DNA of 20,689 bases from a virus, in the IMG/VR virus record IMGVR_UViG_3300046455_000368, positions 1 through 20,689 of that record; one strand, written 5' to 3'. The notes beneath the pieces were generated by a model that ran no database searches, was not told the origin of the DNA, and worked only from the letters and a program-made list of their open reading frames with translations. Below, one piece after another: positions 992 through 12,398 of the stretch; the stretch's first letter is position 1; each line of letters opens with the position of its first letter. The position numbers and the translations under genes are program-made.

Positions 992-1299
992 CGGGCGGGC
1001 TCGTGAACGTGGGGGGCGCCGGAGCCGGGGCACGGCTGGTCGGCGTCGCCGTGGCGACGTATCCGCCCGTCCTGGTTGACCAGTTGCAAGGTGTGGCAGG
1101 ACGGGCAGGGGCGACGGGTGCCGGTGCGGTTCCGCGGGGGGATGTGGACGGCCCACCCGGAGGTGACGAGGTACTCGGCCGCACGACGCGCGGCTTCGTG
1201 GGGGTTTTGCTCGGCTGCGGGGGTGGTGAGGCGGTAGTCATCGAGGCCGGCGGCGAACGCGGCGAGCGCGGCGGGCGGGAACGGGTCGGGGGTCGTCAT
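988..1299 (-). CDS. hypothetical protein with C-terminal Cys/His motif, 103 aa
   Basis: The start is the ATG at 1299 in an ATGA junction with the helicase-loader gene. The N-terminal half (MTTPDPFPPAALAAFAAGLD, then an Ala-rich helix with HEAARRAAEYLV) is followed by a C-terminal region with C-P-S-C-H (residues 65-69) and, about 20 residues later, a second Cys in QPCPGSG, giving a possible zinc ribbon. Its position directly after the replication initiator and helicase loader suggests a supporting part in DNA metabolism, but nothing in the sequence proves this. Confidence 0.7.
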   Translation of the reverse strand: MTTPDPFPPAALAAFAAGLDDYRLTTPAAEQNPHEAARRAAEYLVTSGWAVHIPPRNRTGTRRPCPSCHTLQLVNQDGRIRRHGDADQPCPGSGAPHVHEPAR

Positions 1300-2027
1300 G
1301 CGGCGTGGCCTCCTCGGCGGCGGTCGGTGCCGGTCATGGCGATGACGTGGGTGTCCTCGGAGAGGCGGGACACGATGCGTTCGCCGAGTGCGGCGGTGAG
1401 GTCGCGGCCGTCGGTGGACTTGGCGGGGAGGTTGCTGGTGTAGATCGAGGGGCGACAGGCGTTGTACCGCTCGTTGATCAGCCGGTACGTAACCTCCTCG
1501 GTCCACTCGGACGCCTTCGCGCTGCCGAGGTCGTCGAGGAGGAGGAGCGGGATGCGGCAGAGGCGCCGCAGTTCCTCTTCGACGCCGCGCTGGGAGCCGT
1601 TGGGCCGGAGCAGCCCGTACATGTCGGCTGCGGTCAGCGCCCGGACTTCGTACGGGTGGGTACTGCCGGCGGCGGCGATACGGCGGAGCGCGCCGTATGC
1701 CTGGTACGTCTTCCCGGTGCCGGTGGTGCCGGTGAGGAGCAGCGATCCGGCGGTCTCGGGGTCGGCTGCGACCTCGTCGGCCCAGCGCTGAACGTCCAGC
1801 AGCGTGGCGTCGGAGCGGCGGTAGCGGGGCGGTGTCGCGGTCTCCCAGCGCTTCAGGGCCCATTCGGCGCGGTGGCGGCGGTGGTACTCGGGGTGGCCGG
1901 GCTCGTCGGGGGTGGGCGCGTCGTCGATCGGGCCGGGACCAATGCCTTGCTGCTGCTTCTCGGTGACGCCGGCCATGATGCGGGCGAACGCGGACGGGCC
2001 GAGGCTGCCGACGGTTGTGGGTTCCAT
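1296..2027 (-). CDS. DnaC-like helicase loader (AAA+ ATPase), 243 aa
   Basis: A AAA+ ATPase of the DnaC/IstB type, expected to load the replicative DnaB helicase onto the phage origin in the cytoplasm. Visible motifs: Walker A GTTGTGKT (residues 100-107), Walker B LLLLDDLG (161-168), sensor 1 YTSNL (196-200), and GERIVSRL with candidate arginine finger at 217 or 221. The N-terminal 80 residues lack zinc-binding Cys residues and may contact the initiator or helicase. The length (243) fits DnaC-type loaders. The ATG is two bases after the initiator's stop codon (TGATCATG), so the two are translationally linked. IstB transposition helpers have similar motifs, but no transposase is nearby, and the neighbour is a replication protein. 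Confidence 0.9.
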   Translation of the reverse strand: MEPTTVGSLGPSAFARIMAGVTEKQQQGIGPGPIDDAPTPDEPGHPEYHRRHRAEWALKRWETATPPRYRRSDATLLDVQRWADEVAADPETAGSLLLTGTTGTGKTYQAYGALRRIAAAGSTHPYEVRALTAADMYGLLRPNGSQRGVEEELRRLCRIPLLLLDDLGSAKASEWTEEVTYRLINERYNACRPSIYTSNLPAKSTDGRDLTAALGERIVSRLSEDTHVIAMTGTDRRRGGHAA

Positions 2028-2029
2028 GA

Positions 2030-2893
2030 TCAGAATCCGTTCGAGTAGGCGGAGACATCGGTCGGGTTGGTGTAGGGCTGCCAGCCGCCGACCACAGCAC
2101 GCAGGGCGGGGCGCTCGGTGCCGGGACGGGGCAGCGGCGGCAGTTCGCTCCAGCCGCGCATGAAGTACTTCGCGGAGTCGATGTTGGTGCGGGCTGCGGC
2201 GCGGGTTGCGTAGTCGACGAGAGCGGGGACACCGCTCTTCGTGATGAGCGCCAGGACGGGAAACCACTGGTCGCCCTTAAAGGGCCAGCGAACGGTGATG
2301 CCTGCTGCGGTGATGCCTTCGACGAGCGGAAGGGCGGCTTCGGGGATGCCGTAGCCGAGTCGCTCGGAGGCGGGCTCTTCCTGCTTGCTAGCTGAGGGGG
2401 TAGTAGAGGAGGGGTAAAGAGGGGTAGGGGTCCCGGATTCCGGGACACTGACGTCCCGGATTCCGGGACACTGAGACTGTTCAGGGTCCGCATTTTCGGG
2501 ACACTGAGCGCTTTCGTCAGCGTCCCGGAATCCGGGACGCTGAGAGGTGTCAGTGTCAGGGGAACCGGGACGCTGAGACGGGGTGTCAGTGTCAGGGATT
2601 TCGGGACACTGAGGCACTGCGAACATCGGGATCTTGTACTTCGCGGTGCCGTTCTTCTGGCCGGCCGCCAGCTTCTCCAGCGCCCCCTTGGCGGCGAGCG
2701 ACTTCAGGACGGCGTACAGCTGCGAGCGGCTGAGCTTCGCGCCGTGCAGTACCTCGGGGCGCTCAACGCTGTTCCACGTGATCCGCGTGTCGTCGTTGGC
2801 GTCCTCGGCCAGGACGACGAGGAGGAGCTTCTCCCGGTGCGTCAGGGCCTCGGGTGCGCTGGTGAGCACCTCAACGATCAAGCGGATTCCCAC
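2030..2893 (-). CDS. replication initiator-like protein carrying the origin repeats (lambda O-like layout), 287 aa
   Basis: The N-terminal ~90 residues (beginning VGIRLIVEVLTSAPEALTHR) read as a winged-helix DNA-binding domain, with a recognition-helix-like LSRSQLYAVLKSLAAKGALE. Residues 94-157 form a low-complexity linker of repeated CPG/RPG units that is the translation of the iterons at 2425-2612. The C-terminal ~110 residues (LGYGIPEAALPLVEGITAAG onward) form a compact domain that may contact the helicase loader encoded next. I start at the GTG at 2893, with GAGAAG upstream; an in-frame ATG at 2962 has no good ribosome binding site and lies in the promoter region. Such N-terminal domains are common in actinophage replication proteins. 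The initiator role is inferred from domain order, repeats and neighbour, by analogy with lambda O. Confidence 0.75.
   Translation of the reverse strand: MGIRLIVEVLTSAPEALTHREKLLLVVLAEDANDDTRITWNSVERPEVLHGAKLSRSQLYAVLKSLAAKGALEKLAAGQKNGTAKYKIPMFAVPQCPEIPDTDTPSQRPGSPDTDTSQRPGFRDADESAQCPENADPEQSQCPGIRDVSVPESGTPTPLYPSSTTPSASKQEEPASERLGYGIPEAALPLVEGITAAGITVRWPFKGDQWFPVLALITKSGVPALVDYATRAAARTNIDSAKYFMRGWSELPPLPRPGTERPALRAVVGGWQPYTNPTDVSAYSNGF
2394..2430. other. C-free purine tract beside the iterons (candidate unwinding region)
   Basis: For 37 bases the plus strand has no C at all and only four T (2401, 2404, 2415, 2425), in an otherwise very GC-balanced genome. It directly adjoins iteron 1 on the side coding for the C-terminal half of the initiator, the same side on which lambda ori has its AT-rich segment. 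On the minus strand it codes for a Pro/Ser/Thr-rich linker. It may help strand opening or form unusual DNA structure; this is inference from position and composition. Confidence 0.4.
2425..2612 (+). repeat. six 27-bp dyad iterons, candidate phage replication origin
   Basis: Six copies of a 27-bp unit lie at 2425-2451, 2448-2474, 2481-2507, 2517-2543, 2550-2576 and 2586-2612. Each ends with CGGGAC(A/G)CTGA on the plus strand. The left side tends to the reverse complement: TCAG(C/T)GTC is seen in copies 4, 5 and 6, TCAGGGTC in copy 3, and GTCCCGGA in copies 1 and 2. Copy 4 is a perfect palindrome with 13-bp arms around one A (2530). Starts are 23, 33, 36, 33 and 36 bases apart. The array is inside the initiator gene, as the lambda origin is inside O. 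Binding by the encoded protein is inferred. Confidence 0.8.
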
Positions 2894-2999
2894 GGGTTGT
2901 CTTCTCTCAGTCGTGCGTGGTTGAAGGGCGGCGTCTTGGCAGGTTCGGCCCTCCCCTGCCATACTACTTTAAAGATTGGTCAGAATGGAAAGGATGGTC
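2894..2999. promoter_or_regulatory. divergent promoter region between replication operon and Phd/YefM-like gene
   Basis: The start of this 106-base stretch is GC-rich, but 2960-2995 is the most AT-rich run nearby. For the plus strand, TTGGCA (2936-2941) and CATACT (2960-2965) are spaced by 18 bases, a plausible -35/-10 pair. For the minus strand, TAGTAT (complement of 2961-2966) could be a -10 for the replication operon, with no clear -35. The two would overlap, so one protein bound here could control both directions. Confidence 0.45.
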
Positions 3000-3362
3000 A
3001 TGACTTACACTCTCGACATGGCGTCTGAACTGGAGCCCTGCATTGCCGACGACGGCATTCAGGACGTGCCGCTCACCCGCGCGCGCGCCCTGCTGACCCG
3101 GCTCATCGAGCAAGTCCGCGAAGACGGGCTGGTCAGCGCCCTCACCATTCGTGGCCGGCGCCGCGCCTACCTCGTCACCCCGGATGCCTTCGACACCGCA
3201 CAGTCGGACAAGCGGATGGTCAGTGCCTTCCACGCCGCCGTGCTCGAACGGCCCCTGCCGGAGAAGACGGAAGACTTCCTGACGGTGATGGCCCGCAAGT
3301 TGTCGGAAGCCGAGGAGCGGGATGCTGCGGCTGCACGGCGTATCGCTGACTACGAGCCCTGA
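3000..3362 (+). CDS. Phd/YefM-like antitoxin-fold protein, orphan, 120 aa
   Basis: Residues about 20-65 (DVPLTRARALLTRLIEQVRE then ALTIRGRRRAYLVTPD) match the Phd/YefM pattern: a short strand, an 'LTxARxxLxxLI' helix, then a 'TIxGRxxAxLV' hairpin, a fold that dimerises on DNA. The C-terminal part is charged and helical (ARKLSEAEERDAAAARRIAD). The ATG at 3000 is chosen because GGAAAGG lies seven bases upstream; the frame also stays open to a TTG at 2976. Toxins of such systems (Doc, YoeB) would normally be encoded just after it, but the next gene converges from the other strand, so the gene stands alone. It could be a DNA-binding regulator of the divergent replication promoter or an antitoxin against a host toxin; both are inference. 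Confidence 0.65.
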   Translation: MTYTLDMASELEPCIADDGIQDVPLTRARALLTRLIEQVREDGLVSALTIRGRRRAYLVTPDAFDTAQSDKRMVSAFHAAVLERPLPEKTEDFLTVMARKLSEAEERDAAAARRIADYEP

Positions 3363-3456: not shown

Positions 3457-3921
3457 TCACGCGGTGCGGCCGGTCATCTCGTTGAGCGACACGACGGCCA
3501 TGTCGAACAAGGCCCGGATGCCATCGGCAAAGGCGGATGCTGCGGCCTCGGTGCCGGGGCTGACGAGCGCTTCGAACAGGGCGTAGGCGGTGTCCCGGTC
3601 GTTGTTGCCCCACGCGGTGCTGAACTGGGCGGCGAACCGGATTCCAGCCGGCAGGGTGTTGATGTCGCCGCGGTCCCCGGTGTCGGCGTTCAGGACGAGG
3701 AGCCCGAACGTGCCGCCCTTCGGCAGGGTCTTGCGGGGCCCGATGGCGGACATCTCGGCGAGGGCGGCGCAGAGGCCGACTGCGGTGGCAGGCCCGCCTT
3801 CGACGAACGGGCGGAACAGGGGGATGGCCTTCTCAGGGTGGCCGTCCATGCCATGGGCGAGGGCGGCCATGATGGTCTCGCTGGGGTCCGGCTGCGGCTC
3901 GGTCGGGATCGGGTGCGTCAT
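3457..3921 (-). CDS. hypothetical protein, 154 aa
   Basis: A 154-residue, mostly helical, Ala-rich protein that is the last gene of the long early operon. The ATG at 3921 overlaps the TGA of the WhiB-like gene by one base (TGATG), so the start is well supported; the longer frame to 4017 would overlap that gene. The middle carries GPRKTLPKGGTFGLLVLNAD and GIRFAAQFSTAWGNNDRDTA, which suggests a compact globular fold. No Cys clusters or membrane segments are visible. I do not recognise the family. Confidence 0.75.
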   Translation of the reverse strand: MTHPIPTEPQPDPSETIMAALAHGMDGHPEKAIPLFRPFVEGGPATAVGLCAALAEMSAIGPRKTLPKGGTFGLLVLNADTGDRGDINTLPAGIRFAAQFSTAWGNNDRDTAYALFEALVSPGTEAAASAFADGIRALFDMAVVSLNEMTGRTA

Positions 3922-4514
3922 CAGCGCTGTCCGTTCTGGGAGGCGGTGGCCTTGGTGGTGCCGGTGTTCCGCAACCTGCGGTCGGCGTCGGCGTTGGCCT
4001 TGCGGCAGGCGTCGCACGCGGTCTCACCGTTGCGGCGGTGCCGGTGGTAACCGCCCCGGGTGCCGCACTCGGCCGCTGCCGCACGCTTCAGCGCCTCGCG
4101 CTCTCGCTTCTGTCGGGCGTGGGCGTCGCGGCACGGCTGGTCGATCGGCTCCTTCTTGCGGATGTGCCGGTCGTACGCGGCCGGGGTGCCGCACGGTGCG
4201 AGCGGCTTACCCGAGGGCTGGGGTTCCCTGTCGGTGACCTGGGGGTCGGCGTCCCAACGCTGCCGGGCGGTGAGGCCGCCGCGGATCCCCCACCGGTTCT
4301 GCCTGCCCTTCCCCTCCTCCTCGATGGTTGCGGTGGCGAGGCAGAGGGCGCGGATGGGACAGCCACGGCAGACCTTGACGGCGGCGCGTAGTGCCTCGCG
4401 TTCGCTGTCTTCGGCGAACCACAGGTCCCGGTGATCCGCGTACTGGGGTGCGGCACACGCGGGCTGCTTCCGCCAGGTGTCGGCGGGCTGGAGGGTGTCG
4501 GGTGCGCAGCTCAT
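3921..4514 (-). CDS. WhiB-family regulator with two C-terminal Cys/His repeats, 197 aa
   Basis: The N-terminal 95 residues are a WhiB (Wbl) domain: the four iron-sulfur cluster Cys are C20, C49, C52 and C58 (the latter in VCRGCPIRALC), followed by the WGIRGG turn at 75-80. Wbl proteins carry a 4Fe-4S cluster, bind the major sigma factor, and alter transcription. Unusually long for the family, it continues with two copies of a unit patterned CGTxxxYxRHxRxxE...CRxA, from about residue 108 (CGTPAAYDRHIRKKEP) and about 150 (CGTRGGYHRHRRNGET); these look like small metal- or DNA-binding modules. The ATG overlaps the preceding WhiB-like gene's stop (ATGA). It probably redirects host RNA polymerase for phage genes; the target is unknown. 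Confidence 0.88.
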   Translation of the reverse strand: MSCAPDTLQPADTWRKQPACAAPQYADHRDLWFAEDSEREALRAAVKVCRGCPIRALCLATATIEEEGKGRQNRWGIRGGLTARQRWDADPQVTDREPQPSGKPLAPCGTPAAYDRHIRKKEPIDQPCRDAHARQKREREALKRAAAAECGTRGGYHRHRRNGETACDACRKANADADRRLRNTGTTKATASQNGQR

Positions 4515-4897
4515 GCCGCCGCCTCCTGCTGCTGCCGGTGAGCAGCGCGGACGCGGCCGACGGTGCGGTCGGAGATGTCGAGCTGGTCGGCGATCTCGGC
4601 GAGGGACATGCCGCGGTCGGTGAGAAGCCGGATCTGCCGGTCACGCTCGGAGGACTGCGGGTCTCCGCCCAGGCGGGCCCGCTCGCGCGGGGACTTGCCA
4701 CCCCAGGCGCCGTGTCGGCGGTCGGCGGACGCGTTGCCTTCCAGGCCCCGGGCGTGCTCGTCGCACGCCGTCTGTACCGGGCAGGCCGCGCAGACTTTTT
4801 TGGCCTGCCGGGTGCTGCTGCCCGAGCCCTCGGGGAAGAACAGGTCGGGGTCGGTCTGGGCGCACAGTGCGTCGCCCATCCAGTCGAGGGACTTCAC
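4511..4897 (-). CDS. WhiB-family regulator with C-terminal helix-turn-helix, 128 aa
   Basis: Cluster ligands are C12, C36, C39 and C45 (VCAACPVQTAC at 35-45), and the family turn appears as HGAWGGKSPRERARL from 62. After a short linker, residues about 82-115 (RQIRLLTDRGMSLAEIADQL, then DISDRTVGRVRA) form a clear helix-turn-helix of the type seen in resolvases and sigma-like regulators. The start is the GTG at 4897-4895, which overlaps the upstream stop in GTGA; the longer open frame to 4942 would overlap the upstream gene. It sits head to tail with a second WhiB-like gene, so the two could act on the same promoters or in sequence. Confidence 0.88.
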   Translation of the reverse strand: MKSLDWMGDALCAQTDPDLFFPEGSGSSTRQAKKVCAACPVQTACDEHARGLEGNASADRRHGAWGGKSPRERARLGGDPQSSERDRQIRLLTDRGMSLAEIADQLDISDRTVGRVRAAHRQQQEAAA

Positions 4898-5277
4898 GAC
4901 TTCACCGCCGGTCGGGGCTTGTCGGCACGCCGGTTCTGCCACGTCGCGCCGTGCTCCAGCGCCGGGTTGTCGAGGCTGGTCGCGTTGTCGTATGCGGCCT
5001 GGAGCCGGGCCACCTGCCGGGTCAGGCGGGCGTTCTCGGCCCGGTACCGGACGCAGGCGCGGATCAGGCTGGTGATGCGCCCGGTGTAGGTGACGGCGTC
5101 CTGGAGACGGGTGAGCCGCACCTGGATCAGCGCTTCCTCGGCACCGCTGTACTGGCCGGCGGCCGTACGGATTGCGGCGAGGTGGTCGCGGGCGTCACGG
5201 CGGGCGGTGTCCCGCTGCTCCAACACCCGCTCGTACTGGGCGAGCAGGGCCGTGTACTTGCTGCGGAGAACGAACAT
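4894..5277 (-). CDS. coiled-coil hypothetical protein, 127 aa
   Basis: A 127-residue Ala/Arg/Glu-rich protein with two long predicted helices: residues 5-50 (YTALLAQYERVLEQRDTARR) and about 78-98 (RAENARLTRQVARLQAAYDN), both with heptad-like hydrophobic spacing. The tail is polar. The ATG at 5277 overlaps the upstream TGA (TGATG), but a GTG directly before it (5280) would give the GTGA junction common elsewhere here; the two choices differ by one residue. It lies between the putative annealing protein and the WhiB-like genes. No enzymatic motif is seen; a structural or adaptor role is possible. Confidence 0.72.
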   Translation of the reverse strand: MFVLRSKYTALLAQYERVLEQRDTARRDARDHLAAIRTAAGQYSGAEEALIQVRLTRLQDAVTYTGRITSLIRACVRYRAENARLTRQVARLQAAYDNATSLDNPALEHGATWQNRRADKPRPAVKS

Positions 5278-10372: not shown

Positions 10373-10579
10373 ATGTCCATAACGCCGATCGTGATCACCG
10401 CAGCACTCGGGCAGAACGTCGCCGCGTTCACCTGCCGAATCAACGGACGGCCTGCCGCCGTCATCAACACCCGCACCCGCACCGACCCGACGCTCCACAC
10501 CCAGGCCGCGATGGCCCTCCTGTGCGGCGGCATCGACGCGGGGGCGGCCATGGGGGTACTGCATGGGGTACGTAGCTGA
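10373..10579 (+). CDS. small hypothetical protein ahead of the integrase, 68 aa
   Basis: The ATG at 10373 follows GGGGGG with a four-base gap. The product (MSITPIVITAALGQNVAAFT, then CRINGRPAAVINTRTRTDPT and an Ala/Gly-rich end) has no known domain; the last ~25 residues are weakly hydrophobic (AAMALLCGGIDAGAAMGVLH). It overlaps the integrase start by 17 bases, so the two are probably translated from one transcript. Codon use has strong third-position GC, as in real genes here. A regulatory role for integration is only a guess. Confidence 0.55.
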   Translation: MSITPIVITAALGQNVAAFTCRINGRPAAVINTRTRTDPTLHTQAAMALLCGGIDAGAAMGVLHGVRS

Positions 10580-11816
10580 CCGCTGGCACAAGACCAGGCC
10601 ACGCGGAAACGAGCCAGAGTGTGGTGAGCACAAAGGCAAGGTGGCATCGTCAGCCCACGGAACGGGCAAGAGGTGGCAGGCCCGGTACGACGGACCCGAT
10701 GGCAGGGAACGCACCAGCCTCTGGGCCACCAAAACCGAGGCCGAGCGGGAGATCATCAAGCAGGAAGGGGCCAAGCTCACCGGGTCCTGGCTGGATCCGA
10801 AGGCCGGCCAGGTCACGGTGGAGAGGTTCGCCCTCGACACGTGGCTACCCGCACAGTCGATGATCAGCCGGAGCGAGGTCGAGGTTCTCGGCCTGCTCCG
10901 GCGACACCTGTTCTCTGAATGGGGGCAGCGGGAAATCCGGTCGGTCAAGCCGTCGGAAGCGGGGGCGTGGCAGAAGCTCCTCGTCACGAAGTACGAGTTG
11001 AGCGGGGCCACTCCGAACCGGGTGGCCCGCTTTGCGCGCAGCATCTTCCGCCTCGCGGTCGTTGACCGGGTGCTGCCCGTGTCGCCGTTCGAGAAGATCC
11101 CCGCGCCGAAGCTGGTCGAAAAGGCAGTGCAGCCACCCGACGTGGCTGAGGTGCGGCAACTTATCGCCGCGGCCTTTAACGACCGGTGGCGGGCCATGCT
11201 TGAGTTCACCGCCCTCACCGGGCTCCGCTCCGGTGAATTGCGCGGGCTGCGCTTGGATCGCATCGACTTCCTGCGGCGCACCATGCTCGTCGATCAGCAG
11301 CTGGTGCAGGAGAAAGGCAAGGGCCTGTACTTCGACGACCTGAAGACCGGGGCCGGTCTGCGGACCCTGCCGGTAACACAGCGCGCCCTGGACCTGATTG
11401 CCTCGTACGTTAAGGACCACCCGGTACCGGAGTCAGGCCGGGGTGCAGGGCTGGTGTTCACGATGCCGGCCTCTGGGCTGATCAGTCGGTCGACGCTCGA
11501 CTACGCCATCAAGAGCATCTGCAAGAAGGCCGGCGTGAAGCCGCGGCACTGGCACGAGTTGCGGCACCACTACGCGAGCGTGCTGATCGCGGGTGGGGAG
11601 AATCCGAAGGTTGTTCAGAAGCGGCTCGGGCACGAGGACGTGATGACGACGCTCAGGACGTATGCCCATCTGTTCGCGGAAGCGGAGGAGCAGACGAGGG
11701 ATGTTCTGGATGCGGCGTGGTCTTTGCCAGAGGCGGGGAAGGATTCTTCTGAGACGAGCGGAAGGGTTCCGGAACCGCGGCGCGCGGATGGGGTTCTTTT
11801 GCAGCTCAGGACGTGA
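10563..11816 (+). CDS. int: tyrosine-type site-specific integrase, 417 aa
   Basis: All six catalytic residues of the tyrosine recombinase family are present: R222 (TGLRSGELRGL), K261 (DDLKTGAGLRTLP), H331 and R334 (HELRHH), H357 (KRLGHEDV) and the nucleophile Y367 (TLRTYAHLF). Residues 30-65 (AHGTGKRWQARYDGPDGRER) look like the arm-site-binding AP2-type domain, and about 85-180 the core-binding SAM-like domain. Length is typical of actinophage integrases. The ATG at 10563 has GGGGG six bases upstream. The enzyme recombines attP with a host attB site; attP is expected close by, most likely just after this gene. The last ~35 residues are a polar tail of no known function. Confidence 0.95.
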   Translation: MGYVADRWHKTRPRGNEPECGEHKGKVASSAHGTGKRWQARYDGPDGRERTSLWATKTEAEREIIKQEGAKLTGSWLDPKAGQVTVERFALDTWLPAQSMISRSEVEVLGLLRRHLFSEWGQREIRSVKPSEAGAWQKLLVTKYELSGATPNRVARFARSIFRLAVVDRVLPVSPFEKIPAPKLVEKAVQPPDVAEVRQLIAAAFNDRWRAMLEFTALTGLRSGELRGLRLDRIDFLRRTMLVDQQLVQEKGKGLYFDDLKTGAGLRTLPVTQRALDLIASYVKDHPVPESGRGAGLVFTMPASGLISRSTLDYAIKSICKKAGVKPRHWHELRHHYASVLIAGGENPKVVQKRLGHEDVMTTLRTYAHLFAEAEEQTRDVLDAAWSLPEAGKDSSETSGRVPEPRRADGVLLQLRT

Positions 11817-12155
11817 TCGGTAGCTACCGTATCGGTATGTCGAGCCTGGGGTGGCATGGGCAGGTCAGCGGCGTGGTCATGGGTTGACCAGCGGAAACAA
11901 GCGTTTCAATGCGTTTCGGCGGAGCCTTGGGGGCGTCGTTGTCGTACGGAATTCTTCCGGAATCCGGGCGCCGTCCGGAATCCTTCCGGAACGCGATCCC
12001 GCCCCTGACCACTGGAACAACCACCCCAGAGGCGCCAGTACGCAGCAAAGTCCGGACCGCCATGGTGCATGGTCCGGGCTCTTGCTCGGGCACCTCGCAT
12101 AAAGGCGACCGTTTGGGTACTGACTCGTGATCATTGGCAATCGACTGTTTGAGGA
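11817..12155. other. non-coding, palindrome-rich stretch after the integrase; best attP candidate
   Basis: No convincing gene lies here. Right after the integrase stop, CGGTAGCTACCG (11818-11829) overlaps TACCGTATCGGTA (11825-11837), two nested palindromes. At 11956-11990 the palindrome TCCGGA occurs three times (11956, 11974, 11985), twice as TCCGGAATCC. A long hairpin follows at 12049-12080. Integrase-adjacent, repeat-rich, non-coding DNA is the normal setting of a phage attachment site. No tRNA 3' end is recognisable, so the core sequence and host target cannot be named. Confidence 0.45.
12049..12080. other. 10-bp stem-loop in the integrase-downstream region
   Basis: AGTCCGGACC (12049-12058) pairs with GGTCCGGGCT (12071-12080), nine Watson-Crick pairs and one wobble in RNA; the 12-base loop contains a further ATG/CAT inverted repeat. 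No U run follows, so it may be a terminator for the integrase transcript, a protein-binding site, or part of the attachment region. Confidence 0.5.
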
Positions 12156-12398
12156 GTGCCCCTCCGAAGAACACCCCTGCCCGAGTGGGCCATCGCCCGC
12201 CGCAGGGAATTGGGGCAGCGCCTTGCCGCCGCCCGTCGAACGGTCCAGCTCTCCCAAGACCAGCTCGCCGACCGCGTTGGAGTCGAGCGTCGCACCATTC
12301 AGCGGTACGAGTCAGGCGAGCGAGACCCCCGCTACACCGACCTGCTCCTCATCGCCGACGCGATCGGCGTACCGCTCGCCGACCTCGTACGCAAGTAA
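12156..12398 (+). CDS. small XRE-family regulator, 80 aa
   Basis: Residues about 19-75 are a clear XRE helix-turn-helix domain: LGQRLAAARRTVQLSQDQLA, then DRVGVERRTIQRYESGERDP and a final helix ending IADAIGVPLADLV. The protein is almost nothing but this domain. The start is uncertain: the GTG at 12156 abuts GAGGA with no spacing, so either translation is inefficient or another start is used. It is the third XRE-type gene within 3 kb. It may control the adjacent small-gene cassette or back up the main repressor. Confidence 0.7.
   Translation: MPLRRTPLPEWAIARRRELGQRLAAARRTVQLSQDQLADRVGVERRTIQRYESGERDPRYTDLLLIADAIGVPLADLVRK

Follow-up and report, generated by a model that had tools for sequence, protein, structure and literature searches.

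The window (the whole stretch of 20,689 nucleotides analysed, a virus record in IMG/VR) appears, judging by its relatives, to derive from a Streptomyces prophage or phage. An initiator gene on its minus strand contains an array of repeated dyads and is followed by a gene for a helicase loader. The features of the locus are as follows.

1296 to 2027, minus strand: gene for a DnaC-type helicase loader, immediately following the initiator gene (phrog_50, 6e-34; IstB_IS21, 2e-13)
2030 to 2893, minus strand: initiator gene, encoding an N-terminal winged-helix domain, an array-bearing linker and a C-terminal helical domain
2394 to 2429, minus strand: pyrimidine-rich low-stability tract, candidate unwinding element (from stability and synonymous conservation)
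2425 to 2451, minus strand: dyad unit 6, read in the other frame (VSVPESGT vs QCPGIRD) and adjoining the pyrimidine tract
2448 to 2474, minus strand: dyad unit 5, joined to unit 6 through its distal half (GACGTCAG); the 23-bp pair is recurrent in relatives
2481 to 2507, minus strand: dyad unit 4 (dyad pattern match)
2517 to 2543, minus strand: dyad unit 3, a perfect palindrome with 13-bp arms (dyad pattern match)
2550 to 2576, minus strand: dyad unit 2 (dyad pattern match)
2586 to 2612, minus strand: dyad unit 1, loader-distal (dyad pattern match)

The initiator reading frame is open to 2962 (2030–2962, minus strand), and the start is probably the GTG at 2893 rather than 2962, because homology begins there. 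Comparison with PHROG profiles gave weak but consistent replication-initiation and O-like matches (E about 1e-5 to 3.6e-5). The Pfam scan gave no match to the O or RepA_N families and solely sub-threshold TrmB and HTH_36 matches, and a PDB sequence search with the initiator family profile gave none. In the AlphaFold model, residues 1–93 form a confident wHTH domain and residues 181–250 a confident helical domain, while residues 94–180, exactly the stretch encoded by the array, are disordered. Together with the alignment, this model puts the array, as had been proposed, in the stretch of the gene that separates the coding regions of the DNA-binding domain and the C-terminal domain. The best Foldseek matches in the PDB (E about 0.009) were N-domains of plasmid initiators, with RepA_N on top, and a complex of Rep with DNA. 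The superposition of RepA_N on the initiator N-domain (VIA Z 7.9, 3.6 Å over 91 residues) is tied by unrelated wHTH folds. The fold matched is a common one and the E-values are not significant; many wHTH regulators come close in score, so that the Foldseek matches are supportive at most.

Elsewhere in the window, a gene divergent from the initiator (2976–3362) has a sub-threshold Phd/YefM antitoxin match, and two adjacent WhiB-like genes overlap by 4 bp (3921–4942). Two 20-bp repeats of CGTNCGGAATNCTTCCGGAA, 29 bp apart at 11943–11991, lie between a tyrosine integrase gene (10563–11816) and an HTH gene (12156–12398) and are possibly an operator or attachment-site region.

Analysis of the array verified the original prediction of six 27-bp repeats at 2425–2612 inside the initiator gene, including the unit starts on the plus strand (2425, 2448, 2481, 2517, 2550 and 2586, spaced by 23, 33, 36, 33 and 36 bp) and the perfect palindrome with 13-bp arms at 2517–2543. 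The repeats had been described by a longer shared end with its reverse complement on the other side; the dyad stands, but the conserved half-sites are TCAGNGTC and GACNCTGA in the gene direction, which gives the core TCAGNGTC-N11-GACNCTGA, with weaker conservation of the inner CCGG...CCGG than of these half-sites. With at most two mismatches, this core has 5 matches in the 20,689-base window against 0.11 expected, and none of 100 shuffled windows reached five. Units 5 and 6, nearest the tract, overlap and both lack a proper distal half-site. The spacing had also been held to lie close to whole helical turns, which does not stand: the six starts are unphased at 10.5 bp per turn (resultant length 0.28), and no helical phasing of the units was found (resultant 0.16–0.47).

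To compare the array among homologues, we assembled 50 distinct genes, including that of the window, from viral and genome collections, using patterns in the N-domain, outside the array. Forty-eight of them (that of the window and 47 more) bear 5–8 units at the same part of the gene. The units are spaced mostly by 36 alternating with 33 bp, and a final 23-bp step is present in 47 of the 48 array-bearing genes. Most spacings are multiples of three, fitting the coding need, with the exception of the steps at which the frame changes. The final step shifts the reading frame, so that identical DNA is read as QCPGIRD and then as VSVPESGT, and three relatives (L020, L033 and L064) carry additional frame-shifted units.

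Codon usage within the array revealed a strong constraint on the DNA. The NGT codon after CAG ends in T in all 275 main-frame units, vs 8% expected for these amino acids, while its residue can be C, R, S, G or H; elsewhere in the array-bearing genes, 3.7% of codons end in T. T also ends 88% of the codons before Q, although the residue there varies widely, and 82% of the NCT codons in the other half-site, against expectations of 5% and 3%, respectively. These patterns indicate that selection acts on the DNA of the array, not on the protein, because protein-level selection cannot yield the T-ending pattern. The homologue comparison suggested earlier, which would have refuted the idea had linker residues been kept and DNA repeats lost, gave the opposite: the half-sites persist at synonymous positions, and in two frames, with linker residues changing. 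The linker peptide would mainly be a by-product of holding the sites within the gene.

Immediately behind the last unit comes the tract, with 72–85% pyrimidine in most genes and a stability among the lowest in the region; in the window it is 85% pyrimidine and holds the least stable 40-mer of the initiator gene. Third-base T occurs in 48% of tract codons vs 4% expected (48 genes). By low predicted stability and synonymous conservation, the tract corresponds to the easily melted stretch that adjoins the iterons on one side in a lambda-type layout; its position is the one anticipated for an unwinding element, and it may melt. A G-quadruplex was rejected as a general feature of the tract, its motif being present in just 17 of the 48 genes.

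In many relatives, as in the window, the initiator is followed by a gene for a Walker-A loader. The DnaC-type loader predicted to adjoin the initiator is accordingly present in the window (phrog_50, 6e-34), but in some relatives other genes take that place. Some encode a phrog_8924/22143 protein that contains a phage zinc-finger domain, likewise in SV1 and, by PHROG, in Eklok; in L064 the gene encodes a DnaB-like helicase. Proteins of the phrog_8924 type are found in place of the DnaC-type loader at L051:3894–4460, at L068:3960–4658 and as SV1 gp39; that they act in helicase loading is a guess.

This initiator gene is the sole location of exact dyads in the 25 viral records, two of which (L019 and L021) have none, and in 10 host genomes. 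Scanning 393 Streptomyces genomes by DNA pattern only gave 38 with a match, most of them a single dyad. All four clusters inspected outside the ten named host genomes (G050, G212, G216 and G296) lie within initiator genes, a check that is partly independent, as two are sequences already seen (L077 resembles L043, L088 resembles L041), the G050 protein is that of L059, and G296 is a new sequence. The single dyad matches inspected in host chromosomes were outside initiator genes in all eight cases. When the phage collection was searched for the array at the DNA level, no relevant match came up, and its named phages therefore appear to be without this iteron.

Taken on position, DNA-level conservation, the tie to the N-domain and neighbouring replication genes, these results support the earlier suggestion of a lambda-like origin with a sequence of its own. 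The array is very probably the start point of phage genome copying, and we consider it highly likely that it works as the phage's own replication origin, at which the N-domain binds the dyads, the tract melts and the C-domain brings the helicase. The N-terminal winged-helix domain would bind the dyads, probably as dimers on two TCAGNGTC half-sites, and the bound initiator would assemble on the 5–8 units. The pyrimidine-rich tract beside the array would melt, and the C-terminal domain would then bring the helicase, in the window via the DnaC-type loader encoded next door. As to the GC-skew turn suggested as a check, coding-strand skew within 2 kb differs between the two sides of the array (-0.08 upstream vs -0.20 downstream, n=43 relatives), but there is no sign change. 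This, the weak similarity of the initiator to lambda O families, the unphased units and the non-significant fold matches count against an origin.

Other functions of the array were weighed against an origin. Palindromic sites for a wHTH dimer would look alike in an operator serving autorepression or a different phage regulator, and origin function is itself compatible with autoregulation. An operator instead of an origin is nevertheless unlikely, given the 5–8 mid-gene units with near-fixed spacing, the low-stability tract alongside, the helicase-loading neighbours, and the absence of exact dyads upstream of the gene and elsewhere in the 25 viral records. Plasmid-like phages also use iteron arrays as parS or incompatibility sites, but a partition (centromere-like) or incompatibility site is very improbable here: no ParA or ParB was found among the scanned window genes, the array lies within the initiator gene in every case checked, and the window has a tyrosine integrase, so that the prophage is probably integrated. 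Selection on a repetitive peptide, Q-x-P-x-x-x-D-[TA]-[DE], contacting helicase or loader, with the DNA repeat as its by-product, would agree with the good conservation of its Q, P and D; the third-base T that is invariant in a codon whose amino acid changes, the different peptide encoded by the same DNA in the last units, and the further frame-shifted units of L020, L033 and L064 leave it scarcely tenable. That the palindromes fold as hairpins acting in mRNA is equally hard to credit, since the letters of the half-sites stay the same from unit to unit and gene to gene instead of covarying, and the two imperfect dyads beside the tract still keep TCAGTGTC.

Comparison of the two protein domains among the relatives revealed that the array follows the N-domain and not the C-domain. 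It is present in each of the 48 genes whose N-domain is of this kind (62–100% identity to that of the window), while 22 array-bearing genes lack this C-domain; two of the latter match replication-initiation and primosomal PHROGs (L034) and phrog_8064 (L068). Conversely, L019, L021, SV1 and Eklok have the C-domain in common (41–73%), but are without this N-domain (that of L021 is 30% identical to the window's, E 0.012) and without this array, and their linkers carry other repeated, mostly palindromic motifs, such as GGTCGGGAATCCCGGACAC in Eklok. Different repeated, often palindromic linker motifs were observed with other N-domain classes (Eklok, SV1, Darolandstone and two prophages; L024, L025, L026, L019 and L021), and those of Eklok, SV1 and Darolandstone are candidate origins of named phages. 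We lean, with modest confidence, towards the view that N-domain, dyad array and pyrimidine tract form an exchangeable origin-specificity cassette in Streptomyces phages, combined with C-domains that are unrelated and with different adjacent replication genes (DnaC-type loader, phrog_8924 zinc-finger protein or DnaB-like helicase), with other N-domain classes carrying dyads of their own.

The layout resembles several known systems. The lambda origin within gene O has mid-gene inverted-repeat iterons, an easily melted tract on one side and the loader gene next (PMC7466680), and the array described here shares all three, the tract by its low predicted stability. It differs in its 27-bp dyad of 8-bp half-sites and 11-bp spacer (19-bp imperfect inverted repeats in lambda), in its longer, irregular spacing, in having a pyrimidine tract in place of the AT tract, and in an initiator that does not match the Pfam O family. 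Origins of Stx phages have six iterons, and extra iterons add linker residues (PMC7466680). In SPP1, oriL in gene 38 has repeats and an unwinding element within the initiator gene, with the helicase loader gp39 next (PMC6316719), similar to the repeats, candidate unwinding element and adjacent loader of the window; however, the SPP1 repeats are direct and gp39 is a different loader type. In the rep gene of pSK41, the wHTH N-domain binds boxes in the middle of the gene and the linker encoded by the origin is dispensable, and the pPR9 chimera differs from pSK41 in N-domain and origin as one block but retains the C-domain (PMC5703833); N-domain and C-domain are dissociated in the same way among the phage relatives. 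Unlike the phage initiators, these RepA_N proteins belong to plasmids of low-GC hosts, and their C-domain contacts DnaG primase. For mycobacteriophage RepA, origins have been suggested in or next to repA and likened to that of lambda, with no repeated motifs found (PMC7157519); the likeness lies in an initiator-dependent origin of an actinophage, and the differences are that those prophages are extrachromosomal and that repeats were not found in their case. A search of the open-access literature found no description of an iteron origin in actinophages, in agreement with the original prediction, which knew of none for this repeat. The architecture is already known from lambda O, SPP1 gp38 and pSK41 Rep, but this iteron, the family that carries it and its behaviour as a cassette are apparently undescribed in actinophages.

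The array thus provides a sharply defined candidate origin, found in prophages across Streptomyces, for which both the exact DNA sites and the domain expected to bind them are predicted. An origin within the gene would account for the odd repetitive linkers of these initiators, and it might be used as a replicon for Streptomyces vectors. If N-domain, array and tract are indeed exchanged as a cassette, the linker array could tell the replication specificity of a phage.
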